This document shows positions 18,396-35,172 of a DNA stretch of 57,756 nucleotides, piece after piece. Origin of the DNA: Bacillota bacterium (GTDB taxonomy: Bacteria; Bacillota; Limnochordia; Darwinibacteriales; DTU012); contig JAAYNP010000082.1 of NCBI GenBank assembly GCA_012520795.1, forward strand, positions 1 through 57,756, in the 5' to 3' direction. The notes beneath the pieces were generated by a model, which was given only the letters and a program-made list of their open reading frames with translations, had not been told where the DNA came from and did not search any database. A program made the translations under genes and the position numbers. The first letter of the stretch is position 1. Each line of letters begins with the position of its first letter.

Positions 18396-18716
18396 TGTGG
18401 ACCCTCCTAAATGGATGTGTTTTTGTTACGCATATTTAATACTTTGTTAAACCGGGATTTCCTTCTGTTTTAGTAAAATTTAATTGAAATAATTTCTTGA
18501 TCGAGGTAAGGAATTTAGTGAACCGTTAGTTCAATTCATTAAGCATCAACTTAACCGGCTGGTTGAACAGAAGGTTTGACTGAAAGGCTTTGCCGGGGTT
18601 ACCGCAATTGAACAGCAGGATTTCTGGCAAATGTTTTGCATAAATTAATTGGTTTGTTGAATGATATGTCTCGATGCTAAGGGCTGGAGTTTGGACAATC
18701 GTCTGGAGTGATTGCT
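18396..18716. other. 321-base intergenic region without a recognised gene
   Basis: This region separates CBM9-like copy 2 (minus) and the GH106-like gene (plus). It is AT-rich near 18420-18500, with TTTTAGTAAAATTTAA at 18468-18483. In the plus direction one frame around 18525-18650 reads HQLNRLVEQKV, stop, LKGFAGVTAIEQQDFWQMF, which could be eroded coding sequence, but I recognise no family. I see no convincing promoter pair. Confidence 0.4.
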
Positions 18717-21700
18717 TTGAACCTGAAAGAATTTGGATGTCCGCCAAAAACATATCGCGCATCACCGTTTTGGGCCTGGAATGATCAGCTTACCGATGAA
18801 GAACTGTGCCGGCAAGTACGGGAGATGAAGGCACAAGGTTTCGGCGGATTTTTCATGCATGCACGGGAAGGACTGCAAACAGAATATCTTTCGGAAGATT
18901 GGTTCGACCGGATTGCCGCAGCCGTGAAAGAAGCTGAAGCACATGATTTGGAGGCCTGGCTGTACGATGAAGATCGATGGCCGAGCGGTTGTGCTGGCGG
19001 ACTTGTGACTGCAGGCAACGACGATTTCAAAGCGAAATGTCTTGTGATGGTTCCAGTCGCGGCTGCCGATGTTGAACGAAGCCTGACTGATCCAACGGTG
19101 GAAGCGGTGTTCCGGTATGTGTTCGATAACCAGGGCAACATGGCAGCAGCGGAAAGGATCTGGGAAAGCAGTCAGCTGCAGGTGCCGGAAACGGGCAGCG
19201 GATCAAATCAAGTATCATATTGGCAGTTCCAAACTCAAATCCAAGAGCCAACAGCCAACAGCAACGGCCACGGGTACATCGATGTGTTCAATCCCGATGC
19301 GGTGGAGGCATTTATCCGGGCGACACACGAAAAATACCGTGAGCATGTAGGGAAGTATTTGGGTGCGGTTGTTCCCGGCATTTTTGCCGATGAGCCTACA
19401 TACCGAAGTAAAGCAGAGGATTCAATCCCCTGGTCGCCGCTTTTACCCGGATATTTTCAGCAGGATCATGGCTATGACTTAACCGATCATTTACCAGTGT
19501 TGTTCTTTGAGTACAAAAATAGTGCAAGAATCCGGTACGATTTCTTCTACACTCTTACCAAATGGTTTGTACGGTGCTTCACAAAACGGCTGTATGACTG
19601 GTGTGAGGAGCACAGATTGCTGTATACAGGGCATTATCTAAGTGAAGATACCATGGTGAAGCAGACAAATGCCATTGGCGCCGCCATGCCGCATTATTTG
19701 TACATGCATGTGCCCGGCATTGATCATCTGGGCAACAACATCGATGACAGCCTAACCCTAAAGCAGTGCGCTTCAGTAGGCAATCAATTCAAGCGCAAGC
19801 GCCTGCTTTGCGAGAACTTCGGTGTCAGCGGCCACCATATGACCTTTGCGGATCAAAAGTGGATTGCCAATTTGCATTTTGCCTTGGGGATCACCTTCAT
19901 GTCCCAGCATTTGGTACTCTATTCCATGACCGGCGGCCGGAAGCGGGATTACCCGCCGACATTCAGCTATCATCAGCCCTATTGGCCGTATTACCGCCAG
20001 ATCAATGATTACCTGGCCCGAGCCGGTTATTTCTGTTCCCAAGGCGACTATGTTTGCGAAACTTTGGTCCTGCATCCCATCGGTTCTGTTTGGGCGACAT
20101 TTGCCAGGGAAAAGGGCAAGCCGCTTTCCAGCAGGTATGATGCCGGGTTGATCAAACTGCAGGAAAGCCTGTTCCAGGCACAAGTCCCTTTTGATTACGG
20201 CGATGAACTGATTATGGAAGAACATGCGGCAGTGGTTGATGATCACGGCAAAGCCTTTCTGCAAATAGGGGCTGCCCGCTACAGCACGGTGATAGTGCCT
20301 CCATCCTTGACTTGGCGCCAGAGTACGTTTGAGCTGCTGCAGGATTTTGCTGCAAGGGGAGGAAGGCTGGCCTTTGTAGGTGAAAGGCCCAGTATGGTTG
20401 GGGGCGAAGAGGCCTATGATCGCTGGGATGCACTCTGCAAAAGCAAGAATGCGGCACTGCACAGCAATGAACTGTCTGGATTGGCCGGAGTATTGGCGGA
20501 GCTTTGCCATCGCCCGTTGGAAGTTCGGGGAGATACTGATGACATCCTGTTTCAAACCCGCCGAGACAATAACTGCCTGTACCTCTTCATTACCAATACC
20601 AGCAGAAAGGCTTCCCGGCAGGTAACAGTAACAGTGCCTGTGGACTGGGATGACAACGTCCATGTGTACCGCTGTGATTTCGAAACAGGAGCTGTTGCCG
20701 AAATCGGCACCAGGCTGGTAGGGAATGGGTGGGACTTCGACCTGACTCTGGCCCCTGCCGAAGGCCAAGGCTACATGATCTCCGCAGCAGCGCTTGACTT
20801 GGATGCCGGTGGAGCAGTGGATGCTGCGGCCAATGCCTTGGATTCCGCCAAGATTGTCGAGACTGCGGCCTTAAAAAACGAATGGAGTTTTGCAAGAACC
20901 CACAAGAACTCATTGACTTTGGATTACTGCCGGTATCGTATTGGCGAAGCTCCTTGGAGCGGTATGTTGCCGGTTTGGCAGGTGCGGCGCCGGCTGTGGT
21001 CGTATGCCGGGTTCAATGATTACCAGGAAATCCAACCTTGGGTGATCCTGCCGCAAAAGGACAAGCTGCCGTCGCTGCCGGTATGGCTTCAGTTTGAATT
21101 TTCTGCGGACGATCTTTCCGGAGAATTGGGGGTGGTGGCGGAGCAAGGCCATATTTGGCAGCTGACTGTCAACGGTAAGCCCATCGGCACTGAAACGAGT
21201 GGGTATTACTGGGACAGGCAGTTTGGATTGATTGATATTGCCAAGGCTGTAAAGCCAGGAAAGAACATAATCGAACTTGCAGGGGAGTTCAAGTACGGCG
21301 TAGAGATTGAAGAGATTTATTTGGTGGGAGACTTCGCCCTCAGGCAGAGCGGTTATCAGGAATACTGGCTGGTGCAGGAACCGCCGCTTCTGACTGACGG
21401 CAGTTGGGTTTACCAGGGGTATCCGTTTTACGCCGGCAACATGGTCTACACCCAGGAGCTTGACCTGCCGGAAACGGTCGGCCGCCGCTTCTGGATCAGG
21501 CTGAACCAGCCCAAGGGCACACTGTTCCGGGTGAGGCTGAACGACGGAGAGTGGAAGTACCTTATCTCCCAGCCATGGGAAGTGGAAGTAAGCAATGACT
21601 GTGTTGCAGGGAAGAACTTGCTGCAGATCGAGGTTGTCGGTTCGCTGCGCAACACCTTCGGGCCGCTGCACCACCGCCTGCGGTCGCCGGCGTGGTGCGG

Positions 21701-21797
21701 GCCGAAGCAGTTTGAGGATGAATCGAGCTGGGTCGGGAATTACCAGTTTGAAGACTATGGGCTGATGGGCGGTGCCGAGTTGGTGATTACCATATAA
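18717..21797 (+). CDS. GH106-like large glycosidase (alpha-L-rhamnosidase-like)
   Basis: The start is taken as TTG 18717, nine bases after TGGAG (18703-18707); GTG 18708 touches that site. The 1026-residue product begins SPFWAWNDQLTDEELCRQV, then EMKAQGFGGFFMHAREGLQ and EAWLYDEDRWPSGCAGG, the N-terminal TIM-barrel pattern shared by the GH106 rhamnosidase superfamily. GIFADEPTY and LLCENFGVSGHH carry conserved acidic residues in later barrel strands. The second half holds beta-sandwich domains, including a GH2-type jelly roll near 790-900. Having no signal peptide, it is cytoplasmic. Rhamnogalacturonan or rhamnosides fit the pectin context; the exact substrate is not certain. Confidence 0.75.
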   Translation: MNLKEFGCPPKTYRASPFWAWNDQLTDEELCRQVREMKAQGFGGFFMHAREGLQTEYLSEDWFDRIAAAVKEAEAHDLEAWLYDEDRWPSGCAGGLVTAGNDDFKAKCLVMVPVAAADVERSLTDPTVEAVFRYVFDNQGNMAAAERIWESSQLQVPETGSGSNQVSYWQFQTQIQEPTANSNGHGYIDVFNPDAVEAFIRATHEKYREHVGKYLGAVVPGIFADEPTYRSKAEDSIPWSPLLPGYFQQDHGYDLTDHLPVLFFEYKNSARIRYDFFYTLTKWFVRCFTKRLYDWCEEHRLLYTGHYLSEDTMVKQTNAIGAAMPHYLYMHVPGIDHLGNNIDDSLTLKQCASVGNQFKRKRLLCENFGVSGHHMTFADQKWIANLHFALGITFMSQHLVLYSMTGGRKRDYPPTFSYHQPYWPYYRQINDYLARAGYFCSQGDYVCETLVLHPIGSVWATFAREKGKPLSSRYDAGLIKLQESLFQAQVPFDYGDELIMEEHAAVVDDHGKAFLQIGAARYSTVIVPPSLTWRQSTFELLQDFAARGGRLAFVGERPSMVGGEEAYDRWDALCKSKNAALHSNELSGLAGVLAELCHRPLEVRGDTDDILFQTRRDNNCLYLFITNTSRKASRQVTVTVPVDWDDNVHVYRCDFETGAVAEIGTRLVGNGWDFDLTLAPAEGQGYMISAAALDLDAGGAVDAAANALDSAKIVETAALKNEWSFARTHKNSLTLDYCRYRIGEAPWSGMLPVWQVRRRLWSYAGFNDYQEIQPWVILPQKDKLPSLPVWLQFEFSADDLSGELGVVAEQGHIWQLTVNGKPIGTETSGYYWDRQFGLIDIAKAVKPGKNIIELAGEFKYGVEIEEIYLVGDFALRQSGYQEYWLVQEPPLLTDGSWVYQGYPFYAGNMVYTQELDLPETVGRRFWIRLNQPKGTLFRVRLNDGEWKYLISQPWEVEVSNDCVAGKNLLQIEVVGSLRNTFGPLHHRLRSPAWCGPKQFEDESSWVGNYQFEDYGLMGGAELVITI

Positions 21798-21811: not shown

Positions 21812-22732
21812 CTAGTAATTCCTGATAATAAGCTCGGTAATCATACCTCTGCCGCTGCCATCACAGTTTATGCTTCGCTTTGCGTACACACGATCAATAG
21901 TAAAGCCTTGATAGAGGCTGTCAAAAAAATCATCATCAGGGTTGCTGGCCTTTGGATCAGAGTTGCTGAGGAGAAGTAATGCCCCCATCTCGTCCAATTC
22001 CCGAAAATAATGGGCTAAACGAATTTGGTCGTCATCTGTAAAATCATTCTTATCGTAGGTTGTGAAACTGGCGGTTTTTGTCAGTGGGCGGTAAGGCGGA
22101 TCGAAATACACGAGAGTTCCTTGATCAATGTACGGCTTGGAACCGGTGAAATCGGTGCAGACCAGCTCGATACCGGCCAGTGCTCTGCTGGCCGCCTTTA
22201 TGTTTTCGGGATCACAGACTGTCGGCCTTTTATACCTGCCGTGGGGGACGTTGAACTCACCCTTGTGACTTTGCCGAAACAAGCCGTTATAGCAAGTCTT
22301 GTTGAGGAAAATCATATAGCTTGCCCGCACAATCCAAACTTCGTCAAATGATTCGTAGTTCAATTGGTTCATCTGCTGATTATACAGTTCGCGGATATCA
22401 TAATAAAACACTTGGCGCGCCTGGCTGTCCAGTGCCAGGTAGTCGCTTTCAAGTTGGCTTAAATACGCGATCAATGCATCCGGTTCCTGCTGAACAACTT
22501 TATATCCGAGCATCAACTCCCTGTTGATGTCCATTAAACAAGCATTTTCAACAGCAAACAGGCTTTGCAAATGAAAGAAAAAAGCTCCGCCGCCTACAAA
22601 GGGTTCGACATAGGATTTTATGACACCTGATTCCTTGATCTCATGCGGTAAACGCGCAGTCAATTCACCCAGCAGTTGGGTTTTGCCTCCAGCCCATTTA
22701 AGAAAGGGTTTTGCCTGCATCAGTCTATCCAC
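21812..22732 (-). CDS. dam: Dam-type (DpnM-like) DNA adenine-N6 methyltransferase
   Basis: The 306-residue protein has the alpha-class adenine methylase layout: N-terminal KPFLKWAGGKTQLL, AdoMet-binding VEPFVGGGAFFF (42-53, motif I), a target-recognition region, and the catalytic D211-P-P-Y214. This group (Dam, DpnM) methylates adenine in GATC. The GTG start at 22732 has AAGGGG about ten bases before it; ATG at 22720 is the alternative. No restriction endonuclease gene is next to it, so it looks solitary and could serve regulation, mismatch repair or phage defence. It converges with the GH106-like gene, only 14 bases apart. Confidence 0.88.
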   Translation of the reverse strand: MDRLMQAKPFLKWAGGKTQLLGELTARLPHEIKESGVIKSYVEPFVGGGAFFFHLQSLFAVENACLMDINRELMLGYKVVQQEPDALIAYLSQLESDYLALDSQARQVFYYDIRELYNQQMNQLNYESFDEVWIVRASYMIFLNKTCYNGLFRQSHKGEFNVPHGRYKRPTVCDPENIKAASRALAGIELVCTDFTGSKPYIDQGTLVYFDPPYRPLTKTASFTTYDKNDFTDDDQIRLAHYFRELDEMGALLLLSNSDPKASNPDDDFFDSLYQGFTIDRVYAKRSINCDGSGRGMITELIIRNY

Positions 22733-22813: not shown

Positions 22814-23455
22814 TCACGACATACCGGCACAGGCTTGGACCGCCACTTCCGCCGCAGATGCTGCGTCGGGTGCATAGAGATCAGCGCCGATACTTTCCCG
22901 GAACTGATCAGTGACCGGCGCCCCGCCGATCATAATTTTGACTTTGTCACGGATGCCTGCTTCTTGGGCAGCTTCCACAATCAGTTTCATTTCGTTCATG
23001 GTGGTGGTTAAGAGCGCAGAACAGGCAATGATCTGTGCATTCTCCTGGATGGCAGTTTCGATGAATTTATCCACGGGCACATCGATGCCGAGGTCAATGA
23101 CCTCAAGGCCTTTGCCTTCCATCATCATCCGCACAAGGTTCTTGCCGATGTCATGGAGATCGCCTTTGACTGTGCCCAGGACCACTTTACCTTTGGCCTG
23201 GACGTTGTCGGATACCAGCAAGGGTTTTAAGAGCACTGTCCCTGCATTCATAGCCCTGGCGGCGATCAGCACTTCCGGAACGTAGATCTCGTTGTTCTTG
23301 AACTTCTCACCGATGACATCAATCCCTGCCATCAAGCCTTGTTCCAAAATCTCTTCCGCCGCATACCCCTCATCGATTGCTTGCTGTACCAGTTCTTTGA
23401 CAGCTTTTGCGTTTCCCTGCTGTAGTTTTAGGGAAATCTCATTTAGGATGTTCAT
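22814..23455 (-). CDS. Methyltransferase corrinoid protein (MtaC/MtbC-like)
   Basis: The 213-residue protein has the two-part plan of corrinoid shuttle proteins: a helical cap (about 1-88, with YVPEVLIAARAMNAG) and a Rossmann B12-binding domain with D99-L-H101-D-I-G104 (DxHxxG, where His is the lower cobalt ligand) and IGGAPVT near 176. Such proteins carry a methyl group between a substrate-specific methyltransferase and a UroD-family or tetrahydrofolate methyl acceptor enzyme. The substrate methyltransferase is not beside it, but UroD-family genes lie at 26339 and 39963. It sits 25 bases after the PocR-AraC regulator and probably shares its transcript. Confidence 0.9.
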   Translation of the reverse strand: MNILNEISLKLQQGNAKAVKELVQQAIDEGYAAEEILEQGLMAGIDVIGEKFKNNEIYVPEVLIAARAMNAGTVLLKPLLVSDNVQAKGKVVLGTVKGDLHDIGKNLVRMMMEGKGLEVIDLGIDVPVDKFIETAIQENAQIIACSALLTTTMNEMKLIVEAAQEAGIRDKVKIMIGGAPVTDQFRESIGADLYAPDAASAAEVAVQACAGMS

Positions 23456-23479
23456 GGTGTACCCTCCAATACTAGTGTT

Positions 23480-24769
23480 TTATTTGATCTGACCCCGGGC
23501 TTCCCGATATTTGCCAGGTGTGGTTCCGGTCAATTTTTTAAAGACCCTGGTGAAATAGCTTTGTTCATCAAATCCCACCAGGTTCGACACATCCACCAAC
23601 GGGATATCACAATTGACCAGCAGCTTTTTGCTTTTCTCAATCCGGACAGTGTTGAGGTAGGTGCTGAAATTATAGCCTGTTTCCTCTTTGAACAACCTGC
23701 TGAAATAAGATGGGCTTAAATGGACCTGCCCGGCTACATCTTCGAGGGTCAGTTTTTCCATATAGTAGGTGTTGGTGTATTCAATTGCCTTATATATTAT
23801 ATCTTTATTTTTGACATTCTTAAAGTTAAAAACGCAATCCGTAACGCGGGCCAGGATTTTGGACAGCCACACGCTGAGTTCATCAAGGTTGTGGAGGTGG
23901 GACACTTGCTTGAGATAATGATTGTTAAGCCCAAAAATCTCTTCCTGTTCCGCTCCCCCTTCCATTGCCGCCCTGGAAAGGAGGACCACCAATTCCACCG
24001 TTCGGTACTTGATCAGTTCAAAATCGTTTTGGGAAAAAAAGATAAAGCCCAAAATTTCATTCAGCACTCTTTGAGCGCCGGTTTTATCACCGATTGCCAC
24101 GTAGGAGATTAACTCGTTTTCTTTGTCGATGGGATAATCATGCGCCAAGCCATCTGGTTTTGGCCCCATCTGGCTGAGATAAGCCGCCGGATCTAAGTCA
24201 AGCAGTGGACTATCCTGATAAGCAGCAGGCGGCCTCCAATAGTGATCCCTTTCGGAATTGGCATGGCTGGCCAAAAGGAACAGCAGTTCAGACAGGCTCG
24301 TGACCACATCTGGCTTTATTACGGGAACCATATCCATAAACGCCTTGAACCGGCGGCGTTGCTGGTGATCCTGAATCCGCTGCTCAATGATTTCATCAAT
24401 CAAAAAAGCTTCCGGTTCAATCATCATCACCGGGCCGGCGACAAACGCGCCTTTAAACAATTCTCCCAAATCAATGGGTGCCACCCAGTGGGTAAGCCCC
24501 ATGGGGCAGAAGTAGATGTATCTGCCGCCAAACCGCTCAGCCTGGAAACTGCCGTACGCATGTACATTCTCACAGCGGCACAAGTTGGCAAAGCCCTCCC
24601 GGCCGGCCTGGCAGAACAGGCTGCAGTTTTTGGCCGGGGCATGGTGAACGATACTACCGGAATAGTCGATGACAAAACTGGCAATTCCCGTTGCCTTACT
24701 GTAATAATCGATCCACTGGCAAATCTTCTCAAGCCCGGTGCCGCCTTCGGCAAACTTTTTCGCTTCCAT
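23480..24769 (-). CDS. AraC-family regulator with PocR sensory domain
   Basis: The 429-residue protein has an N-terminal PocR-type ligand domain (about 12-165) with the Cys-rich pattern CSLFC, LCRCENVHAYG and YFCPMGLTHWVAPI. A helical middle part follows, then an AraC double helix-turn-helix at 340-425 (LTLEDVAGQVHLSPSYFSRL and GFDEQSYFTRVFKKLTG). PocR domains sense small organic compounds and are common regulators of cobalamin-dependent pathways. Its position directly before the corrinoid protein gene suggests that it controls the methyl-transfer genes. The inducer is unknown. Confidence 0.88.
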   Translation of the reverse strand: MEAKKFAEGGTGLEKICQWIDYYSKATGIASFVIDYSGSIVHHAPAKNCSLFCQAGREGFANLCRCENVHAYGSFQAERFGGRYIYFCPMGLTHWVAPIDLGELFKGAFVAGPVMMIEPEAFLIDEIIEQRIQDHQQRRRFKAFMDMVPVIKPDVVTSLSELLFLLASHANSERDHYWRPPAAYQDSPLLDLDPAAYLSQMGPKPDGLAHDYPIDKENELISYVAIGDKTGAQRVLNEILGFIFFSQNDFELIKYRTVELVVLLSRAAMEGGAEQEEIFGLNNHYLKQVSHLHNLDELSVWLSKILARVTDCVFNFKNVKNKDIIYKAIEYTNTYYMEKLTLEDVAGQVHLSPSYFSRLFKEETGYNFSTYLNTVRIEKSKKLLVNCDIPLVDVSNLVGFDEQSYFTRVFKKLTGTTPGKYREARGQIK

Positions 24770-24965
24770 AGCCTCACCTTTCGGTTAATATTCTAAACGA
24801 TAATAGGGCATGAATCAATATCAGAAACGGATAAAGCGGCAGCCGGCAAGCGGATCCATCTGCGGCCCGGAACCGGATCAGGCAAATACTGCAGGGGAAA
24901 TGCAATCAGAGTAGAATAGAAACAGTAGGCTTAAGTAGATTATCTTGGTAAAAGAGGGAGATACG

Positions 24966-26246
24966 ATGAATATCAGACTCAGGATTGGATTCCTGGTAGT
25001 TGTAATGATAGCGGTATTTTCGCAGTTGGCTGGGGCGCAGTATTCCATTCCTCTCAAATCAGAACGGGCTATAACGATTGCCGACAATGTCATTGCCTGG
25101 CAGACGGACGCCGGCGGATGGACGAAGAATATCGATTTTTCGACAGTAATGTATCAGCCGCATATGTCCAAGGGAGACGGCACCTTTGACAATAACGCCA
25201 GTATCAAGGAAATGCGGTTTTTGGCTTACATGTATATGACCCATGGGTTTGACCGCTATAAGGATGCTGTCATTAAAGGTATCGACTGGATGCTGGACGC
25301 CCAATACCCCAGCGGCGGCTGGCCGCAGTACTACCCACTGCGGGGCGGGTACTCTGACAATGTCACATTTAATGACGGTGCCATGATTAATGTCCTTAAC
25401 TATATCCAGGAGATTTTGAAATACCAGGGTTTGTACCAGTTTATCGGGGAGGAGCGCTTTGAGCGCCTGGAGGCTGCATTGGAGAAGGGCATAGAATTCA
25501 TTCTGAAAGCTCAGATCGAAGTGAACGGGCATCTTACTGCATGGTGCCAGCAGCATGATCCGGTAACTTATGAACCGCGGATGGGGCGGAGTTACGAACA
25601 TCCTTCCATTGTTTCGGCGGAATCGGTTCCGATTGTGGAGTTCCTGATGTCGCTGCCGGATCCGTCGGAAGACGTGCGCCGGGCTATTTTAAGCGCACTG
25701 GAATGGTTTGAGCTGTCGCAGCTGCCGAACCGTCAATGGGCCCGTTTCTACGATATCCAGTCCAATGTCCCCATCTTTTCCGGGCGTGACGGGATTATCC
25801 GCTACGAAGTGACCGACATTGAGTTGGAGCGGCAGCAGGGTTACAGCTGGTTCAGCGGCAGCCCCGGCAGGTTGCTGGACAAAGGCAGGCACGGCGGGTA
25901 CATGGATAAGCTGCGGGAAAGCCTGCCGGATCACAAGCAGATCACGATCGATGTGTTTACTGATCCGGCCATACCGAAATTCAAGAGCCCGAAGATCCAG
26001 CCACCTCCAACGGCAAAGGGCATGCTGGATATTGAGATCGAAATCACCATGCGCAAGCCGGAGGATCTGGAAGAAGTGGTGATCAAGATTGATAGTCAAG
26101 AAATCTACCGCGGCAGTGATTCTGTGATCAGATTGTCCTATGATACCACTCAGGTTTCAAACGGGACCCACGTCATTATCGTTCAAACAATGACCAAACT
26201 GGGCACTGCCCTGACCCATAATGTCCGGTTCACTGTAAACAACTAG
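24966..26246 (+). CDS. Secreted PL10 pectate lyase with C-terminal beta-sandwich
   Basis: ATG 24966 is chosen because GAGGGAG lies seven bases before it. The 426-residue product has a signal peptide (MNIRLRIGFLVVVMIAVFSQ, cleavage after LAGA). Residues about 35-330 match PL10: WQTDAGGWTKNIDFS, GTFDNNAS, YPSGGWPQYYPL, FNDGAMINVLNY and TAWCQQHDP, an (alpha/alpha) toroid fold with the Asp/Arg catalytic groups of the family. Residues about 345-426 form a small Ig-like domain. It cuts polygalacturonate outside the cell by beta-elimination. It converges with a UroD-family gene; a weak CATAGG/CCTATG hairpin is in the 92-base gap. Confidence 0.88.
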   Translation: MNIRLRIGFLVVVMIAVFSQLAGAQYSIPLKSERAITIADNVIAWQTDAGGWTKNIDFSTVMYQPHMSKGDGTFDNNASIKEMRFLAYMYMTHGFDRYKDAVIKGIDWMLDAQYPSGGWPQYYPLRGGYSDNVTFNDGAMINVLNYIQEILKYQGLYQFIGEERFERLEAALEKGIEFILKAQIEVNGHLTAWCQQHDPVTYEPRMGRSYEHPSIVSAESVPIVEFLMSLPDPSEDVRRAILSALEWFELSQLPNRQWARFYDIQSNVPIFSGRDGIIRYEVTDIELERQQGYSWFSGSPGRLLDKGRHGGYMDKLRESLPDHKQITIDVFTDPAIPKFKSPKIQPPPTAKGMLDIEIEITMRKPEDLEEVVIKIDSQEIYRGSDSVIRLSYDTTQVSNGTHVIIVQTMTKLGTALTHNVRFTVNN

Positions 26247-26338
26247 AGCAAAGCCATAGGGATGGTAAAAAGCCGGCTTGGGGCTTGATCAGCCGCCAGG
26301 CTGGCCTATGTTTTCTGCTGATATTACACGCCGTGCTG

Positions 26339-27373
26339 TTATACCGGTTCCTTGATCGCTTCAAACATAGCCTCAATATTGGCCGGGTCTACATCGGGAA
26401 GGATTGCTTCATGGCTGGGTGAGAAAACCAGCCCGGTTGGGAAGAGCCGTTTCAGCTTTCTGACACTGTCTTTGACCTGCTGTGGCGTGCCGTGGATCAA
26501 CAGCTGCTGAGCATCGACGCCGCCGCAGAATGATACTTGATCGCCAAAATCCCGCTTCAGCCTTTCCGGTTCCATATCTTTGGCCAGGGCTTGAATGGGG
26601 TGGACTACGTCAACACCTACGGCAATCAAGTCCGGGATCACATCATAAATAGAGCCGCAGGAGTGGTAGACAACCTTCAATCCATAGCTTTTGGCCTGCT
26701 CAACAAACTTCCTGGTGCCGGGGATCACAAACTCCCTGATCGCATCCGGTGACAGCATCAACCCTCGTTGACTTCCAAAGTCATTACCGATTAAAATGGC
26801 ATCCAGCTTGCCTTTGGTGGCACTATAGAAAATATCATTGGCATCAAGGTAAAACTCGGTGATCCGTTCAATCACAGCCCTGAACATTTCAGGCTCGGTC
26901 AGCATCTTAACCAGGGCAGTTTCCATGCCGAAGGCGGAACAGGCATCTTGAAAATGAGCTGACCACAAAACCCCCATGATTGGATAGCCTGCCGGTACAG
27001 CTCCCACCGCCCGGCGGCATTTTTCCGGATCGATATGTTTTGCCGGATCAGGCCAGTCAAAATCGTCAATCCTGCCGGGATCGGAATAATCCTCGAAGAA
27101 TCCCGGCGCTGTCAGTGTCCTTTGGTCAGGAGCGCCGGCGTGTTTGGCAAAATTGAGTGCCGTATAGATGGCATTGCTGTGAGGGGACTCATACGGGATT
27201 TCCACCGGGTAGATGTCATCTTCGAGCTTTTGTTTCAATTGGTTGATGTCGCTGCTCTTAAAATAGGAAAAGAGGCGTTCACAAGCCTCCGGCAAGGGCA
27301 GGCCAAGCCATGATGCGGGCCTGTCCACCGGCTTTCGTTCAATCGTGGCGTAAAATCTTTCGATGCGATTCAT
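26339..27373 (-). CDS. UroD-family protein, probable corrinoid methyltransferase component
   Basis: The 344-residue TIM-barrel protein is of the uroporphyrinogen-decarboxylase superfamily. It has H237-S-C239 (VVYHSCGSI) and a later Cys283 in FCGGVD, the His-x-Cys...Cys zinc site of MtaA/MtbA-type methyltransferases. True HemE lacks this site. It would move a methyl group between a corrinoid protein and a thiol or other acceptor. The cognate corrinoid protein could be the one at 22814, which is 3 kb away with the PL10 lyase between. The start has AAGGAAGG about six bases upstream. The exact methyl donor cannot be read from the sequence. Confidence 0.8.
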   Translation of the reverse strand: MNRIERFYATIERKPVDRPASWLGLPLPEACERLFSYFKSSDINQLKQKLEDDIYPVEIPYESPHSNAIYTALNFAKHAGAPDQRTLTAPGFFEDYSDPGRIDDFDWPDPAKHIDPEKCRRAVGAVPAGYPIMGVLWSAHFQDACSAFGMETALVKMLTEPEMFRAVIERITEFYLDANDIFYSATKGKLDAILIGNDFGSQRGLMLSPDAIREFVIPGTRKFVEQAKSYGLKVVYHSCGSIYDVIPDLIAVGVDVVHPIQALAKDMEPERLKRDFGDQVSFCGGVDAQQLLIHGTPQQVKDSVRKLKRLFPTGLVFSPSHEAILPDVDPANIEAMFEAIKEPV

Positions 27374-27467: not shown

Positions 27468-27573
27468 TTTATAAAATATGATCGGCTCTTCTTGTGGCAG
27501 TGGAATTTGTTTTCCTGCAAGGAGAGCTTTTCGTCATGATCGGTTGCAAAAACACTGGAGAGCAGGTGGATCA

Positions 27574-29781
27574 ATGTTTGTAGAGATGGTAAAGGTTCCG
27601 GCGGGATCTTTCAAGATGGGCGGCGGTGATCTCAAAAACAGGCCTGATGCACTGCCAACCCACCATGTGACGATTTCCCGGGATTTTTTGATCGCAAAAG
27701 AGCCCGTCAAGTACGAGCTGTTCGCCCAGTTTTACCGGGAAGAGTACGGTGAAGAGCCGGATGCCGAAAACTACCTGGGTTTCGTGATCGGAGCCAGCTG
27801 GTATGAAGCTGAACTGTTCTGTGCCTGGCTGAGTGCAAAGACCGGTCTGGCTTACCGCCTGCCGACAGAGGCGGAGTGGGAATACTGTGCCAGGAACAGC
27901 AGGAAATTTGGTATTGACCGGATGTGCGATCTGAACCTGCGGGAATGGTGCTTTGACTGGTATGATCAATACTCCGCGGATGCGCAGACTGATCCTGCCG
28001 GCCCTGATTCGGGTATGTTCAAAGTAGTCAGGGGCGGCTTCCTGGACAATCCGTCTAGGTTCAACGCCTACTATCTGGAAGTCTGGGCACGGGCTTCGCT
28101 GCCGCCGAATTACAGGCATTTCCCCGGGGATCCCAATGATTTCGGCCGCCACAATGTGGGGTTCAGGGTGGTGCAGGGTGAACCGGCCAAAACAAATGGA
28201 AAATGCGCTGTCATACCTTTATCACTCCACGTTCGGCAAAACCGCCCTCCGGCAAAAATCACCTCCGAGAAGCCCTACTTCAGAAAACGCTACCTGTTTC
28301 CTATTCCACCGGATACGGCGAGCCCGGAAGCAATCCAAGCCTTCGGGCTGAACCCGCTGTTGAGGCACCACAACCATTCACCGGCGCTTGAAGTGGCGCC
28401 CAACGGGGACTTGATTGTTTCAATATATTCTTCTTACCACGAATATGATCCGGAAGTGGGGTTGATGGGTGCCAGGCTGAGATACGGAGCCGACGAGTGG
28501 GAAATGCCGGATATCTGGTGTAATGCAGTGGGTGTCAACGATCATGCGCCGCTGCTTTTCACAGACCGGGACGGGACCATCTTTCATTTCTGGGGATGGC
28601 CGCAGCTGGACAATTCTTTTCCGTTTCAGTTCATCTACTCCAAAGATAATGGTGCAACCTGGAGCGAGGTCCAGTTCCCGAAGTTTTCAGAGAAGGCGGA
28701 GCAGGTGATCAGCCAGCCGGTAAACACAGTGGTCCATGCCCAAGACGGCTATTATTACGTACCCTGCGATGTCCGGGGCGAGTCCACCTCAATTTTGTGG
28801 CGCTCGCAGGACCTGATCAACTGGGAAGTGCCAAAGGGCAAGACCGCAGGCCGGCACAGCACCGTAGTCGAGCTGAAGGACGGCAGGCTGTTGGCTGTTG
28901 GCGGCAAGAACACCAATATCGACGGGTTCATGCCGCAGACCATTTCACGGGACAGGGGTGATACCTGGGAGGTGAACAGGACACCATTTCCGGCCATGGC
29001 TTCAGGGCAGCGGCCCTGCGTGATTCGGCTGCAGAGCGGGCGTTTGTTATACTGCGGCGATTTCCAGACCAAATTGGGTAAAAGGCCGCCGGGTGCCGCC
29101 GATGATCAATGGGGTTCATTTGTGGCCTACTCTGAAGATGAGGGCGATACCTGGGTGGTTAAAAAACTGTGGGGTACGCAGCATAAGAAGCAGAATCCGA
29201 CTCAGCTGGGTGGGTCGCATACGCTGGGCTACAGTGTCTGCCGCCAATCACCGGACGGGTTGATCCATATCATCACATCAAACAACCGCCCTTGCCTGCA
29301 TCTTTGCTTCAACGAAGCCTGGCTCCTGGCTGATACGGATCAGTGCCCGGATGATCAGGAACTGATGCTTGAAACTGCTGCAGAAATCTCCAATGTTAAG
29401 ACATATACTGAAAAATATCCCGATGGCCGGATCAAATGTACCTATGACGGCGGTACTGCCGCTGACGGGCGCTTTTTGCTCCATGGTGAGGAAAAATGGT
29501 ACTATTCTTGCGGCGCATTAATGACTGAATGCAGTTATCAGTTTGGAAAGAGGATTGGCACCTGCACTCACTACAGCCCGGAAGGCGACAAAATCTGGGA
29601 GTGGGAATACCGGGAAGGCGGGGTGGCTCTTTACAAAACCTATTACGGCAATAACCAGCTGAAAACTATAGGAAGCTATCAAAACCGGATTGCCCATGGA
29701 TGGGCCGAAAGGTATGCTCCCGACGGCAAACAGGAGTCCAGAGTCCTGTTTGAAAACGGAGTGATCATCAAGGCCGAATGA
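27574..29781 (+). CDS. Three-domain fusion: SUMF1-like domain, BNR sialidase-like propeller, MORN repeats
   Basis: ATG 27574 follows AGGTGGA; an upstream in-frame ATG at 27478 has no such site. Of 735 residues, about 1-205 are a SUMF1/FGE-like domain (VPAGSFKMGGG, YRLPTEAEWEYCAR, LREWCFDWYDQY, KVVRGGFL, NVGFRVV). The paired catalytic Cys of true formylglycine-generating enzyme is not seen, so sulfatase activation is unlikely. Residues about 240-600 form a sialidase-like propeller with three Asp-boxes, SKDNGATW, SRDRGDTW and SEDEGDTW. Residues about 610-735 hold MORN-like repeats (YPDGRIKCTYDGG, LHGEEKWYYSCGAL, YAPDGKQESRVLFENG). No signal peptide is present. The role is unknown; a cytoplasmic glycan-binding or hydrolysing enzyme fits the context. 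Confidence 0.75.
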   Translation: MFVEMVKVPAGSFKMGGGDLKNRPDALPTHHVTISRDFLIAKEPVKYELFAQFYREEYGEEPDAENYLGFVIGASWYEAELFCAWLSAKTGLAYRLPTEAEWEYCARNSRKFGIDRMCDLNLREWCFDWYDQYSADAQTDPAGPDSGMFKVVRGGFLDNPSRFNAYYLEVWARASLPPNYRHFPGDPNDFGRHNVGFRVVQGEPAKTNGKCAVIPLSLHVRQNRPPAKITSEKPYFRKRYLFPIPPDTASPEAIQAFGLNPLLRHHNHSPALEVAPNGDLIVSIYSSYHEYDPEVGLMGARLRYGADEWEMPDIWCNAVGVNDHAPLLFTDRDGTIFHFWGWPQLDNSFPFQFIYSKDNGATWSEVQFPKFSEKAEQVISQPVNTVVHAQDGYYYVPCDVRGESTSILWRSQDLINWEVPKGKTAGRHSTVVELKDGRLLAVGGKNTNIDGFMPQTISRDRGDTWEVNRTPFPAMASGQRPCVIRLQSGRLLYCGDFQTKLGKRPPGAADDQWGSFVAYSEDEGDTWVVKKLWGTQHKKQNPTQLGGSHTLGYSVCRQSPDGLIHIITSNNRPCLHLCFNEAWLLADTDQCPDDQELMLETAAEISNVKTYTEKYPDGRIKCTYDGGTAADGRFLLHGEEKWYYSCGALMTECSYQFGKRIGTCTHYSPEGDKIWEWEYREGGVALYKTYYGNNQLKTIGSYQNRIAHGWAERYAPDGKQESRVLFENGVIIKAE

Positions 29782-29898: not shown

Positions 29899-31299
29899 TT
29901 GAAAATAGGCGTGATACTCGGCAACAGAAGTTTTTTCGCAGATGAATTGTGTCTGGATGGAAGGCAGCGGATCCTTGGGGCTTTGGAAGCTGCCGGGGTG
30001 ACTCCGGTGATCCTGCCGGAAGACGCAGGGGCATATGGCAGTGTGCAAAACAGGGAACAGGCGCTTGAATGCGTAGCCTTGTTCAAGGAACACAGCGATC
30101 TTGCAGGCGTGGTTATTTCATTACCGAACTTCGGTGATGAAAAGTCCATCGCTATCGTGCTGCGGGAGGCCAAAATCGATGTGCCGGTTTTGGTCCATGC
30201 CTTCAACGATCACCTTGATCGCCTTGACTATGAGAACCGCCGCGACAGCTTTTGCGGTAAGGTTTCTGTCTGCAACAACTTAAGGCAATATGGGATCAAG
30301 TTCACCCTGACCACTCTGCACACAGTAGATCCGGAACACCCCACGTTTCAGGCGGATCTCCAGCGGTTCCTGGCTGTTTGCCGGGTAGTGAGAGCCCTCA
30401 AACGGGCAAGAATCGGGCTCGTGGGTGTGCGGCCGGCAGATTTCAATACGGTCCGCTATAGTGAGAAACTATTGGAATACAACAATATTTCTGTGGAGCC
30501 AATCGGCCTGATCGACATCGTCGGCAGGATTGACGAGCTTAGCGATGATCAAGCGGAACAGGCTCTTGCCGAGATTAAAGCCTATATGCCCACCGAAGGT
30601 GTGCCGGGCGGTGCATTGGTGAAAATGGCCAAATTGCTGATGGTACTGCGGGAGTGGGTTGGCAGCAGCGATCTTCACGCAGTAGCTGTTCAGTGCTGGG
30701 ATTCGCTCCAGCGTTACCTGGGCGTTAATCCGTGTGCAGTTATGAGCATACTGGCCAATGCCGGGATTCCCGCAGCCTGTGAAAGTGATGTTGTCGGCGC
30801 CGTAAGCATGCTGGCCCTGCAGGCAGCGAGCGGCATGCCCAGCGCACTTGTGGACTGGAACAACAACTATGCCGATGATCCCGAACGGTTTGTCTTGTTC
30901 CACTGCGGTAACTTTGCCAAGGCAATCTACCAGAACGAATCATGCAGCCCGGCCATTAATTATCCGCCAATTTTAGCCTCGACCTTGGGGCAGGAGCATA
31001 CCTACGGATCCATTGATGGCAAGGTAAAGCCCGGCAAGGCCACCTTTGCCCGGATTACGACTGACGATCTGACCGGGACAATCAGGGCTTATTGTGCCGA
31101 AGGTGTCATTACCGATGATCCCCTTGCCACTTTTGGTTCCTGGGGAGTGGTGAATGTACCGGGGCTGCAGGATTTAATGCGCTTTATCTGTGAAAATGGG
31201 TTTGAACACCATGTGGCCATTACCTTGGACAGTGCTGCCGATGCTTTGGCAGAGGCATTAGGCAAGTATCTGGGATGGGATGTGTACCGTCACCGCTGA
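29899..31299 (+). CDS. L-fucose/L-arabinose isomerase-family protein
   Basis: The 466-residue protein starts at TTG 29899 after TTAGGGGG. It has the FucI/AraA superfamily look: an N-terminal Rossmann-like domain (KIGVILGNRSFFADEL), HAFNDHLDRLDYENRRDSFCG around 104-124, WDSLQRYLGVNPCAVMSILA near 275, an acidic metal-binding residue in PAACESDVVGA near 300, and HCGNF near 335. Such enzymes interconvert an aldose and a ketose in the cytoplasm. Fucose isomerases are about 590 residues and arabinose isomerases about 500, so this is a shorter branch of unknown sugar. As first gene of the cluster it probably does the first intracellular step. Confidence 0.75.
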   Translation: MKIGVILGNRSFFADELCLDGRQRILGALEAAGVTPVILPEDAGAYGSVQNREQALECVALFKEHSDLAGVVISLPNFGDEKSIAIVLREAKIDVPVLVHAFNDHLDRLDYENRRDSFCGKVSVCNNLRQYGIKFTLTTLHTVDPEHPTFQADLQRFLAVCRVVRALKRARIGLVGVRPADFNTVRYSEKLLEYNNISVEPIGLIDIVGRIDELSDDQAEQALAEIKAYMPTEGVPGGALVKMAKLLMVLREWVGSSDLHAVAVQCWDSLQRYLGVNPCAVMSILANAGIPAACESDVVGAVSMLALQAASGMPSALVDWNNNYADDPERFVLFHCGNFAKAIYQNESCSPAINYPPILASTLGQEHTYGSIDGKVKPGKATFARITTDDLTGTIRAYCAEGVITDDPLATFGSWGVVNVPGLQDLMRFICENGFEHHVAITLDSAADALAEALGKYLGWDVYRHR

Positions 31300-31311
31300 G
31301 GAGGGATTTGC

Positions 31312-31974
31312 TTGAAAAAGCTTGTGGCGATCTATACTGGGCAGGGATTGGCGGAACCGCTGCAAAAGCTGATTCAATCAGAGCTTCCCGGGCTTTGGCT
31401 GGTCAACATAATCGATGACGGGATCATCCATGATGTGATCAAAGCCGGCGGCGTGACCAATCCGGTTAGAAGGCGGTTGATCAAGTACTATCAGATAGCG
31501 GTGGAAATCGGTGCCGATCTGATTCTCAACACCTGTTCGTCCGTGGGCGAAGTGGTTGATCTGGGAAGGGCGCTGATTGATGTCCCCATTGTGAAAATCG
31601 ATGAGCCAATGGCCAAACATGCGGCCGCCAACTACCAGAGAATAGGGGTCGTTGCCACTTTGCCGACGACGCTTGAGCCCACTGCCAGGCTTGTGCAAGC
31701 TCAGGCACAGACTTTGGGAAAAGACATCACGATTATTGACGGGTTGGCTGAAGGCGCTTACCATGCCCTGATCAACGGCCGGGCGGATGAACATGATCAG
31801 CTGATTATGGAAGTCGGCCGCCGGTTGGCGGAACAGGTAGACTGTATTGTCCTGGCCCAGGCTTCGATGATGCGGATGCAGCAGAAGCTGGCGGAAACGG
31901 CGAACGTGACTGTCCTGTCCAGCCCGCCCCTATGTGTCGCCCACCTCAAAACCATGCTGGAGCGTGGAATATGA
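31312..31974 (+). CDS. Asp/Glu racemase-superfamily protein with one catalytic Cys
   Basis: This 220-residue two-domain protein begins at TTG 31312 after GGAGGG. LILNTCSSVGE places a Cys (C75) at the first catalytic position of Asp/Glu/hydantoin racemases. At the second position LAQASMM (181-187) has no Cys, so a two-base racemase mechanism is unlikely; single-Cys relatives include decarboxylases and isomerases. It lies 12 bases after the isomerase, and its stop overlaps the next start (ATGA at 31971-31974), so it is part of the same translation unit. The substrate is probably an intermediate of the cluster's sugar. Confidence 0.7.
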   Translation: MKKLVAIYTGQGLAEPLQKLIQSELPGLWLVNIIDDGIIHDVIKAGGVTNPVRRRLIKYYQIAVEIGADLILNTCSSVGEVVDLGRALIDVPIVKIDEPMAKHAAANYQRIGVVATLPTTLEPTARLVQAQAQTLGKDITIIDGLAEGAYHALINGRADEHDQLIMEVGRRLAEQVDCIVLAQASMMRMQQKLAETANVTVLSSPPLCVAHLKTMLERGI

Positions 31975-32801
31975 TGTCAGGCCACAACGTCAGTTACCTG
32001 GAACACATGGCGCGGCAGATCCGCCGTGACATCATCACCATGATTTATGAGGCGGGAGACGGGCACCCGGGACCCAGCCTGTCCTGTGCCGATCTTGTCA
32101 CTGCACTCTATTTTGCAGTTATGGAAGTGGATCCAGCCAATCCCCATTGGCCCCGGCGCGACCGCTTGATTCTATCCAAGGGCCACGCCTGTCCTGCTGT
32201 TTATGCCGCATTAGCCAGGAAAGGCTATTTTGATCCTGCCGAACTGCCGCGGCTCCGCACTCTTGGCGGGATGCTCCAAGGCCATCCCGACATGCTTAAG
32301 ACTCCCGGCATTGATTTTACCTCTGGTTCTTTAGGAAACGGGATCAGTATCGGGCTGGGAATTGCCCTTGCCGCCAGGATTAACGGCCTGGAATACTACA
32401 CATATGTGATTACCGGCGATGGAGAGCTGCAGGAAGGAATCATTTGGGAAGCGGCTATGGCCGCCAAGCATTACCAGGTGGGCAATCTGATCGTCTTTGT
32501 CGATTACAACGGAATTCAAAGCGGAGGCAGGATAGCAGAAATTAGCGGCCTGGAGCCAGTTATCCCCAAGTTTGAAGCCTTTGGGTGGCACTGCCAGGAG
32601 ATTGACGGCCACAACTTCACCGAGATTTTGTCGGCAGTGGCCAACGCCAAAGCCACGCCCGCCATTCCTTCCGTAATTGTCGCCCATACTGTCAAGGGCA
32701 AAGGCATCTCATTTATTGAAAACAATAATGCCTGGCACAAAAGGGTTCCGGACAAGGCAGAGTGGGAGCAGGCATTGCAGGAGCTGGGGGCTGAACCATG
32801 A
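31971..32801 (+). CDS. Transketolase N-terminal subunit, pair 1
   Basis: The 276-residue protein is the thiamine-diphosphate-binding half of a split transketolase: LILSKGHACPAVYAAL, GSLGNGISIGLGIAL, and the ThDP motif from GDGELQEGIIWEAAM to FVDYNG, plus TVKGKGISFIEN at the end. It starts inside the previous stop (ATGA) and its own stop overlaps the next start in the same way, so three proteins are translationally coupled. With the next gene it moves a C2 ketol unit between a ketose and an aldose. Split transketolases are used for pentoses but also for odd sugars such as apulose-4-phosphate or sulfosugars. Confidence 0.9.
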   Translation: MMSGHNVSYLEHMARQIRRDIITMIYEAGDGHPGPSLSCADLVTALYFAVMEVDPANPHWPRRDRLILSKGHACPAVYAALARKGYFDPAELPRLRTLGGMLQGHPDMLKTPGIDFTSGSLGNGISIGLGIALAARINGLEYYTYVITGDGELQEGIIWEAAMAAKHYQVGNLIVFVDYNGIQSGGRIAEISGLEPVIPKFEAFGWHCQEIDGHNFTEILSAVANAKATPAIPSVIVAHTVKGKGISFIENNNAWHKRVPDKAEWEQALQELGAEP

Positions 32802-33757
32802 TCAAGTATGCATCTACGAGAGCGGCTTTTATCGACAGCCTGACAGAGTTGGCGGGCAGTAATCCCAAAACTGTCCTTGTCTGCGCCGATTCAGCCAAAG
32901 TGATCTGGGCCGATGGGTTCAAGGAGAGATTCCCGGAGCGGTTCATTGATGTGGGCATTGCGGAGCAAAACGCCGTGGCCTGCGCAGCCGGATTGGCATC
33001 ATGCGGCTTGATACCGTTTGTCGCCACCTATGCCGGGTTTATCACCATGAGGGCTTGTGAGCAAGTACGGACTTTTGTGGCGTATCCCAACTTAAACGTA
33101 AAAATGGTGGGGGCAAACGGCGGGATTGGAGCCGGTGAACGGGAAGGTGTCACACACCAGTTCTTCGAAGACCTGGGAATTTTGCGGGCTATTCCCGGTA
33201 TTACCATTGTGGTGCCGGCGGATGCCTCCCAGGTGGGCAAAGCCGTTAAGGCTGTGGCCAATATCCCGGGGCCGGCGTATGTGCGGATCGGCAGTGGGCG
33301 AGATCCAGTTGCCCTGGATGCGGATCTCCCATTTGAGCTGGGTAAAACCAGGGTTCTTAAAGCTTTTGGGGACGATGTGGCCATCTTTACCAACGGGCAT
33401 GCCATCCCCAGAGCCTTGGCGGGAGCAGAGGAACTGAGCAAGGCGGGAATCAAGGCCACTGTGGTTGAGGTCCATACCTTGAAGCCCTTGGAGACTGAAG
33501 CCATAGCAGAGATTCTTGCGAAAACAGGTGCAGCGGTTACGGTGGAAGACCATAGTATTATCGGAGGCTTGGGCAGCGCCATCGCCGAAGTGATTGCTGA
33601 ACAGGTCCCAGTGCCCTTGGCCAGGATCGGGCTGCGGGATCGGTTCCCTGAATCAGGGCCGGCGGAACAGCTGATGGATGCTTATGGGTTGAGTGTTGGC
33701 GATATCACTGCTGCGTGCAGGCAAGTATTGGCCAGAAAGGAAGGTCGGCATGGGTAA
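32798..33757 (+). CDS. Transketolase C-terminal subunit, pair 1
   Basis: The 319-residue partner of the preceding gene has the pyrimidine-binding domain with the activating Glu in FIDVGIAEQNAVACAAGLA and the C-terminal domain with TVEDHSIIGGLGSAI. It also contains NGGIGAGEREGVTHQFFEDL, the loop that faces the substrate. It starts by ATGA overlap with the N-subunit, which ensures equal amounts. The transaldolase-family gene starts within its last codons. Confidence 0.9.
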   Translation: MIKYASTRAAFIDSLTELAGSNPKTVLVCADSAKVIWADGFKERFPERFIDVGIAEQNAVACAAGLASCGLIPFVATYAGFITMRACEQVRTFVAYPNLNVKMVGANGGIGAGEREGVTHQFFEDLGILRAIPGITIVVPADASQVGKAVKAVANIPGPAYVRIGSGRDPVALDADLPFELGKTRVLKAFGDDVAIFTNGHAIPRALAGAEELSKAGIKATVVEVHTLKPLETEAIAEILAKTGAAVTVEDHSIIGGLGSAIAEVIAEQVPVPLARIGLRDRFPESGPAEQLMDAYGLSVGDITAACRQVLARKEGRHG

Positions 33758-34799
33758 CGGCTACTTTCAGCGGGTGGCACAGCAGAGCCCTACCAGATTA
33801 TGGATCAACAATCCAACCAGGGAGGAAGCGAAGAAAGCTATTGCAGCCGGAGCCATCAGCTGTACCACCAACCCTACTTATGCAGCCAAGATGCTGCAGT
33901 CCGAATCGGAAAGAGACGCAGTGATTGCTGTTATTGATCAGGTTATAAAGGCCAAAAGTGACGACTCAGAGGCGGCTGCCCAGATCCAGAGGCTGGCAAT
34001 CAAGCCGCTGGTGGAGATCTTTCGACCGCTTCATACAGCCAAACAGCGGCAGGGTTTTGTCTCAGTACAGGGCGACCCCTTTGCTGAAGATGATTACACC
34101 AATATTATCGATGCCGCCTTGGCCGACCGGGGATTGGGTGAAAACGTGATTGCCAAAATCCCCGTCACAGCGGCAGGTTTAAAGGCCATCGAATACCTGA
34201 TTGGTGAGGATGTGCCCATTATTGCCACAGAGGTGATGGCCATCTCCCAAGCCATCACTGTTTGTAAGCTGTATGAACGGGCCTGTGAGAAGTTAAATAA
34301 ACGGCCGCCGTTTTATGTCACCCATATCACCGGAATTCTCGATGAATATCTGCACAATTTGGCCCGGCAGGAGCAGATCGGTATAGCCAAAGATATTCTC
34401 TGGCAGGCGGGGACTATTGTGGCCCGCAAGCAGTACAGGATACTGAAACAGCGGGGCTTTAACGCAACCATGCTGGGGGGTGGGGCCAGAGGGCTGCACC
34501 ACTTTACAGAAATGGTTGGCGGTGACATCCATGTCACCATCAATTGGCGGGGAGCTGCGGATGAGCTTCTCAGCCAGGATCCGCCGGTGGTTTACCGCAT
34601 GGATACGCCGGTTCCCGACTATGCCGTCAGGGAACTGCTGCGCATTCCCGCATTCAAGATGGCCTTTGCAGAAGACGGCCTTGCTGTGGAGGAGTATGCC
34701 GATTTTGGGCCGGTGCGCTATTTCAGGGATAGCTTTGAAGCAGGCTGGAGCGCTTTGCTGACAGTCATTGACGAAAGGCGCCGGGCTGGAAGCGGCTGA
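33750..34799 (+). CDS. Transaldolase-family protein
   Basis: The start is ATG 33750 with AAAGGAAGG upstream, overlapping the transketolase stop by eight bases. The 350-residue protein has the transaldolase barrel with LWINNPT, SCTTNPTYAAKM, and the Schiff-base Lys K136 in NVIAKIPVTAAG. Its C-terminal part, with GGGARGLHHFTEM and HVTINWRGAADEL, is longer than in the small TalC/FSA type, near the length of TalA. It would transfer or cleave a C3 dihydroxyacetone unit. Beside two transketolases and no complete pentose pathway, a special sugar phosphate is likely. Confidence 0.8.
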   Translation: MGNGYFQRVAQQSPTRLWINNPTREEAKKAIAAGAISCTTNPTYAAKMLQSESERDAVIAVIDQVIKAKSDDSEAAAQIQRLAIKPLVEIFRPLHTAKQRQGFVSVQGDPFAEDDYTNIIDAALADRGLGENVIAKIPVTAAGLKAIEYLIGEDVPIIATEVMAISQAITVCKLYERACEKLNKRPPFYVTHITGILDEYLHNLARQEQIGIAKDILWQAGTIVARKQYRILKQRGFNATMLGGGARGLHHFTEMVGGDIHVTINWRGAADELLSQDPPVVYRMDTPVPDYAVRELLRIPAFKMAFAEDGLAVEEYADFGPVRYFRDSFEAGWSALLTVIDERRRAGSG

Positions 34800-34824
34800 A
34801 GCTTTGACGAAAGGAGTGGGCTTG

Positions 34825-35172
34825 TTGGCGATGGCAGACAACAAATACCACAAGCGTTTGGAGGAGCAGAAGACAGTGGAGATGCTGCCCGGCATCTTCA
34901 GGACCACCCTTGCTTACAATGATCAGCTGATGCTGTGCCATTTTTACATGAAAAAAGGGGCTGCGATCCCTCTTCACAGCCATGAAGCTGTTCAAAACGG
35001 ATACGTGATCAAAGGCAAGGTGCGCTTCTTTACCAAGGATGGAACTGACATCATTGCCAAACCCGGGTCTGGCTATGTTTTTGGCTCATACGAGGAACAC
35101 GGCTCGGAAGTGCTTGAGGACACAGAATTGATCGAGTGCTTTACTCCGATGCGCCAAGAGTACATCGATTGA
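34825..35172 (+). CDS. Cupin-domain protein
   Basis: The start is uncertain among TTG 34822, TTG 34825 and ATG 34831; TTG 34825 has the best spacing (eight) to AAGGAG at 34811-34816. The product of about 115 residues is a single small cupin barrel with P-L-H-S-H-E-A (metal-binding His pair plus Glu) and, later, E-E-H-G-S-E supplying the last His. Cupins of this type in sugar clusters are mutarotase-like isomerases, epimerases or lyases for sugar acids. No stronger call is possible. Confidence 0.75.
   Translation: MAMADNKYHKRLEEQKTVEMLPGIFRTTLAYNDQLMLCHFYMKKGAAIPLHSHEAVQNGYVIKGKVRFFTKDGTDIIAKPGSGYVFGSYEEHGSEVLEDTELIECFTPMRQEYID

Follow-up and report, generated by a model that had tools for sequence, protein, structure and literature searches.

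Related systems and the locus studied

Methionine synthases split into a separate PF02574 protein and a corrinoid subunit, with a RamA-like activase, have been described from Phaeobacter inhibens and, as MtgBCDE, from Ruegeria pomeroyi, and in Ruegeria one corrinoid protein is common to a donor demethylase and to methionine synthesis (PMC5764234; PMC12478193). The type 1 mlp clusters of Kountz and Balskus bring together UroD-family methyltransferases, a corrinoid protein and an activase in anaerobes, some of them without a folate methyltransferase (PMC10418091), and the O-demethylase and chloromethane systems Odm, Mtv, Mto and Cdm (compared here by name only, except for the system of the paper cited) combine a UroD-family methyltransferase I, a corrinoid protein and an activating enzyme (PMC13222342). 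Here we describe a predicted corrinoid methyl shuttle whose carrier gene lies among pectin degradation genes, at positions 22814-27373 of a 57,756-nucleotide contig from a Bacillota bacterium of the DTU012 lineage (GenBank assembly GCA_012520795.1, contig JAAYNP010000082.1). We call this whole stretch the window; it is contig C40 of G000, the genome studied, a metagenome-assembled genome (MAG) of 2.37 Mb in 154 contigs that is 99.0% complete. G001-G004 are the other members of its genus, and G005 and G008 are relatives outside the genus. Our comparisons with published systems draw on parts of the papers cited.

The set is like the split methionine synthases in having a separate homocysteine-binding PF02574 open reading frame (ORF, on contig C144), a stand-alone corrinoid protein and a RACo-type activase. 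Unlike them, its donor enzymes are of the UroD family and its homocysteine subunit is a truncated MetH; unlike MtgCDE, it has no pterin subunit (half a PF00809 domain only), no methylenetetrahydrofolate reductase (MTHFR) and no MttB. DUF1638, which accompanies the corrinoid gene in the split systems, is near it in 12 of the 80 related loci discussed below. With the type 1 mlp clusters the set shares the three protein families, but those clusters are defined by at least two Mlps, a corrinoid protein and Ram in the same direction within 2 kb, whereas here the corrinoid gene is on C40 and the UroD and RACo genes are on contig C136; a single His-Cys-Cys UroD takes the place of two or three Mlps together, and no sulfur or selenium genes were among the neighbours seen. 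The likeness to Odm, Mtv, Mto and Cdm ends at methyltransferase II, the pterin enzyme, which was not found in G000. Finally, the proposed making of methionine from a corrinoid-bound methyl group without folate recalls MesA-C; MesA-D, however, are of the MetE type, and the candidate here is of the MetH type (PMC7857596).

The genes form a real and conserved corrinoid methyl shuttle set with its carrier in the pectin locus, and methyl transfer itself is predicted from their sequences. In the reading that we favour, the window would supply the carrier, its regulator and one or two candidate donor enzymes, with the other parts encoded elsewhere in the genome. The PocR-AraC regulator would turn on the carrier when a small substrate is present; the methyl donor may well arise during pectin breakdown, because the carrier gene lies in the pectin locus in this genus; the single activase on C136 would re-reduce the carrier after accidental oxidation; and the truncated MetH on C144 would pass the methyl group to homocysteine, giving methionine without folate. 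Gene content, families, motifs and synteny are observed, as are the folate-side absences at the sensitivity of the searches, whereas the direction of methyl transfer, its acceptor and its pectin source are inferred. To the explanation as a whole (shuttle, homocysteine acceptor and pectin-linked donor) we assign a probability of roughly 0.45.

The carrier and its regulator in the pectin locus

A reading of the window from its sequence alone had placed a corrinoid protein with a DxHxxG motif, a PocR-AraC regulator, a polysaccharide lyase family 10 (PL10) pectate lyase and a UroD-type methyltransferase in this interval, and the ORF list and Pfam scan recover all four at those positions with matches not due to chance. 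The corrinoid protein (22814-23455, minus strand; 213 aa) is MtgC/MtbC-like and has the B12-binding cap and domain (B12-binding_2, 3.3e-20; B12-binding, 1.6e-27) of the stand-alone carriers in three-component UroD-type corrinoid methyltransferase systems. Its DxHxxG motif reads GDLHDIGKN, and its best solved relative is 1y80, a “predicted cobalamin binding protein” (E 9e-57). The regulator (23480-24769, minus strand; PocR 1.5e-22, AraC HTH_18 3.4e-22) is directly upstream on the same strand, with a gap of 24 bp, so that the two genes form one tandem pair. PL10 (24945-26246, plus strand; Pec_lyase 2.6e-92; TIGR02474 284.5 bits, cut-off 189.8) diverges from the regulator across 175 bp and is convergent with the UroD-superfamily gene, here called w24 (26339-27373, minus strand); with PL10 intervening on the opposite strand, w24 stands outside the corrinoid operon. 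The set thus comprises a regulator-carrier pair and, transcribed separately, a UroD gene.

According to published work the PocR domain senses small hydrocarbon derivatives, and one UroD/corrinoid dichloromethane cluster includes a histidine kinase with PocR (PMC9768040). TAGAAT-like boxes in the regulator-PL10 gap are conserved in three genomes and probably represent -10 boxes. No convincing word was common to this gap and the other promoter regions compared, and therefore a co-regulation of these genes, which may exist, is not claimed. At the gathering score Rfam gave no match, and so no riboswitch, in the window, and six further loci gave tRNAs only.

In 80 named related loci, all with a corrinoid match (the ORF caller labelled the corrinoid ORF in 63), PocR-AraC is directly upstream of the corrinoid gene within 400 bp in 32, and UroD lies within 5 kb in 39 (BLAST label above 60 bits). 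In the tree, the small corrinoid proteins of the family fall into two lineages. The first is part of an order-level module, together with a UroD of the type called C3 below, an activation-like protein and RACo, and has survived in G003 and G004. The second, to which the window copy belongs, falls in a clade of Clostridia-type proteins often encoded right after PocR-AraC.

This distribution raises the explanation that the regulator-carrier pair, common in Clostridia, merely landed in the pectin locus of the genus ancestor and serves housekeeping methyl transfer. The pair is indeed widespread without pectin genes, PL10 being near the corrinoid gene in 2 of the 80 loci, both from this genus, and the closest copies outside the genus (G005, G008) are beside neither PL10 nor a GH106 gene. 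Such hitch-hiking would however be rather unlikely in our view, as the position in the pectin locus survives rearrangement in G001, G003 and G004, and within the genus w24 occurs only in members with the corrinoid gene at that locus, G002 lacking both. The earlier proposal of a corrinoid methyl transfer set among pectin genes is supported here: all four genus members that have the corrinoid protein and UroD (G000, G001, G003 and G004) carry them in the pectin cluster, and in all four w24 neighbours PL10.

Activase and probable partner methyltransferase elsewhere in the genome

A genome search found one RACo-type activase in G000, on C136 (E 9.9e-82), where its match to the NCBIfam family AcsV (417 bits) stays below the cut-off of 800; it is an activase of the RACo/RamA type. 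The sequence-only reading had looked to the rest of the genome for a corrinoid-activation gene, which is thereby located, and for an MttB-like gene, which it does not contain (PF06253, no match in G000). Directly beside RACo is the UroD protein L038_7, called C3 here, whose ligands make up the complete His-Cys-Cys pattern (H-x-C ... GC). The best NCBIfam matches of C3 are methylcobalamin:coenzyme M (CoM) methyltransferases, at 126.9 bits and below cut-off; it reaches the cut-off neither of the MtaA/CmuA family TIGR01463 (89.9 against 235.4 bits) nor of hemE (45.5 against 302.95). PF01208 (UroD) has six matches in G000, to which w36, a gene in the sugar cluster of the window, adds a weak seventh relative. 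Two very similar UroD paralogs with an H-x-D motif were also seen on separate contigs, C134 and C38 (L039, L040).

The best evidence for which proteins work together comes from G005 and G008, where a window-type corrinoid protein (82% and 80% identical), joined with the window copy in the tree, is encoded beside RACo, the activation-like protein and a C3-type UroD. G000 and G001 keep UroD and RACo at the C136-type locus with no corrinoid gene there, and have no small corrinoid protein other than that of the pectin cluster. On the simplest reading, because the module locus retains UroD and RACo without a carrier gene, the pectin-locus carrier now serves C3, and the corrinoid shuttle very probably works with the C136 activase. 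A second complete operon with its own corrinoid protein had been named as a reason to drop the earlier proposal. G000 has none, since the window protein is its sole PF02607 match, but such a set does occur in the sister genomes G003 and G004, where a second corrinoid protein adjoins UroD, activation-like protein and activase.

The ligands of C3 also invite another explanation, in which the substrates demethylated by the C136 UroD with the corrinoid protein are methyl-thiols or methyl-selenols, as suggested for type 1 mlp clusters, and the pectin position is irrelevant to the substrate. As argued in PMC10418091, His-Cys-Cys sites suit sulfur or selenium substrates and non-Cys ligands suit O-methyl groups, and that source also notes clusters lacking any folate methyltransferase. 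Both the H-x-C ... GC motif and the matches to methylcobalamin:CoM methyltransferases fit this salvage, which would moreover account for G004, a genome that keeps the system without methionine genes. Yet at least two Mlps, a corrinoid protein and Ram are not found together here, and w24 with PL10 is left unexplained, as is a truncated MetH without MTHFR. We hold such a salvage function, taken as the whole explanation, to be rather improbable; a division of labour in which C3 is a sulfur or selenium enzyme and w24 or the H-x-D paralogs are possible O-demethylases may be inferred by analogy.

Homocysteine as the candidate acceptor

Our favoured reading of a shuttle ending in methionine is built on a MetH remnant in G000, a 458-aa ORF on C144 with a homocysteine domain (PF02574), a pterin part covering only positions 7-128 of the 244 of PF00809, and no B12 domains; when a full MetH was used in tblastn, no continuation turned up in the sequence that follows this ORF. 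The homocysteine domain keeps the zinc cysteines GxNC and GGCC and groups with the family's own MetH (86/86) in a rebuilt tree of 17 rows that excludes L106, L154_4 and L189_10 and includes, as additions, MetH of G047 and G058 (an earlier tree held rows matched only through other MetH domains). An identity as the S-methylmethionine enzyme MmuM, represented by the Escherichia coli protein on a long branch, is not supported by this tree.

The genome search found no MTHFR in G000 and no full pterin-binding methyltransferase apart from the C144 half domain. The MetE core PF01717 is absent from all 13 genomes searched, G000 included, and MttB-family PF06253 matches 2 of the 13. Because none of these four could be found in G000, folate as an acceptor route looks closed. 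G000 also has a MetY-like enzyme, and in G001 a MetY-like gene, a homoserine acyltransferase and a homocysteine methyltransferase (297 aa) form one row.

Within the genus the two sets are mutually exclusive: G002 has full MetH and MTHFR without small corrinoid protein or RACo, whereas in G000, G001 and G003 MTHFR is missing and the corrinoid protein and RACo occur with a truncated homocysteine methyltransferase. Among 60 relatives, a small corrinoid protein is present in 10/10 with PF02574 and without MTHFR against 10/21 with MTHFR (p 0.005, kinship not corrected; the ten genomes come from five families). The 30 genomes counted as having this protein are those with about 49% identity or more and a short frame or short match, two of the matches being partial (G028, 65% over 154 residues; G014, 49%).

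Direct neighbourhood is seen in two rumen loci, in which a stand-alone homocysteine methyltransferase adjoins a related corrinoid gene (67% identical). One of them, L154:994-5649, comes from a sheep-rumen Clostridia MAG, and its row runs UroD (H-x-D), corrinoid protein, homocysteine S-methyltransferase, DUF2284 and RACo; in L189 the corrinoid gene is followed by homocysteine S-methyltransferase, with RACo about 2 kb further. Homocysteine is thus the best candidate acceptor, and we give it an even chance of playing that role in this species.

The source of the methyl groups

Rhamnogalacturonan II contains 2-O-methyl-xylose and 2-O-methyl-fucose. A candidate donor methyltransferase in the window is w24 (Pfam UroD, 1.2e-25), which had been called a zinc-motif UroD: H237-x-C239 bears this out, but H321 stands where methyl-CoM enzymes have a cysteine as third ligand. 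It falls short of the MtaA/CmuA family TIGR01463 (50.7 bits, cut-off 235.4), and HemE was rejected as its identity (21.5 bits, cut-off 302.95). An AlphaFold2 model of w24 (mean pLDDT 81.5, pTM 0.83; residues 64-97 poor) matches HemE (VIA Z 27.8, rmsd 3.0, 299 residues aligned) and MtaA (4ay8; Z 26.9, rmsd 2.9, 295 aligned) about equally, and MetE at Z ~17.

Matches to w24 occur in 49 of 398 genomes, the genus included. Nineteen such loci outside the genus, which are among the best-scoring matches, lie within the phylum and encode proteins 35-43% identical to w24. In 18 of them the pattern is H-x-C ... H, not H-x-C ... C; two or more parts of a sugar ATP-binding cassette (ABC) importer lie within 6 kb in 10 (12 by label, before L241 and L246, with a generic ABC ATPase only, were dropped; several of the sugar-ABC reference proteins came from these same loci), a corrinoid protein in 4 and RACo in none within 6 kb. 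Two rows (L240:1623-12229 and L243:4545-14977) combine a SorC-type regulator, an FGGY kinase, a UroD (H-x-C ... H), a sugar ABC importer, a corrinoid protein and a methyltetrahydrofolate:corrinoid methyltransferase-like protein, and may be systems that O-demethylate a methylated sugar or polyol after its import.

The second UroD-like gene that had been noted in the sugar cluster, w36 (39870-41078, plus strand), is present, with an ortholog in G001 (76%), but it is weak (Pfam E 0.085) and has H-x-D in place of H-x-C; a PDB search with it gave nothing usable. We withdrew the idea that H-x-D UroDs are not methyltransferases, as the L154 row has one beside its corrinoid gene, and w36 is possibly a further donor methyltransferase.

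The model first proposed for the locus, in which methanol or O-methyl sugars from pectin feed the corrinoid protein through w24 and folate is the acceptor, finds its best ground here, in the retention of w24 by PL10 throughout the genus members that carry it, in the importers and corrinoid proteins around its relatives, in L240 and L243, and in non-Cys ligands of the kind tied to O-methyl substrates in PMC10418091. We nevertheless consider it quite unlikely: G000 lacks MTHFR, an intact pterin-binding methyltransferase and MttB, the sugar-importer relatives are distant from w24, and no pectin methylesterase is among the window genes scanned (the genome was not searched for it). What may stand of this model is the recovery of methyl groups from sugars, for which the sugar-importer setting of the w24 relatives is the best support; their origin from pectin would follow from position, and release of the donor from pectin is a tentative proposal that we think less probable than not. 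The titles and abstracts of the open-access literature searched mention no UroD/corrinoid system for pectin or O-methyl sugars; the search directed at O-methyl sugar demethylation gave a single paper, on methanol in Moorella.

Weighing the favoured reading

Several observations weigh against a pectin-fed shuttle to homocysteine. Besides the rarity of PL10 near the corrinoid gene and the thiol or selenol substrate to which the ligands of C3 point, the C3-type UroDs of G005 and G008 are only 56-59% identical to that of G000, and in a MAG of 154 contigs absences could be gaps. Of the 80 loci, just the two from the rumen have a homocysteine methyltransferase within 6 kb of the corrinoid gene, and a small corrinoid protein is nonetheless present in 10 of 29 relatives with neither MTHFR nor PF02574. 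In G004, two corrinoid proteins, RACo and a C3-type UroD are accompanied by no homocysteine methyltransferase and no MetY-type match over cut-off; methionine therefore cannot be the sole use, and we regard the shuttle as a hub for which homocysteine is one acceptor.

Known folate-independent methionine synthases are of the MetE type (PMC7857596), known split MetH systems retain the pterin subunit (PMC5764234; PMC12478193), and no folate-free synthase of the MetH type is described in the titles and abstracts of the open-access literature searched. A bolder and rather doubtful extension is that such an enzyme runs here on plant methyl groups: UroD demethylases would take methyl groups from pectin breakdown to one corrinoid protein, common to several UroD donors, and a MetH without its cobalamin part and with half its pterin part would transfer them to homocysteine, so that the pectin locus feeds methionine and S-adenosylmethionine. 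If true, this route would explain methionine synthesis in anaerobes without MTHFR, assign a function to many UroD-family proteins that stand unassigned in carbohydrate loci, and couple the degradation of polysaccharides to the supply of one-carbon units. For direct assay of it, the row in L154 offers a compact system.

Other features of the window

The four genes are surrounded by a GH106-like gene (18708-21797), a Dam-type DNA methyltransferase gene (21812-22732), the sugar cluster (29899-43490) and a further pectate lyase gene (46637-48604). Within the sugar cluster, one row (29899-38021), largely retained in G001, holds two split transketolases, both complete (31932-33757 and 36235-38021), a transaldolase-like gene and an isomerase whose similarity to the sulfoquinovose isomerase SftI is weak (107 bits, cut-off 700). 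It resembles the layout of the bifurcated sulfo-transketolase/transaldolase pathway (PMC11659671), but its setting is a pectin locus, where it may serve a rare pectin sugar by a transketolase route. At 41066-43490 the cluster closes with a gene for a D-threonate/3-oxo-tetronate kinase-like protein and then one for a PdxA-type dehydrogenase, an order suggestive of a four-carbon acid-sugar pathway. Two fused ORFs were also seen, one at 27478-29781 joining a Sulfatase-modifying-factor-like domain to a BNR repeat domain, and one of 893 aa at 1272-3953 whose single frame combines EF-G-like GTPase domains with a YacP-type NYN domain at the C terminus.

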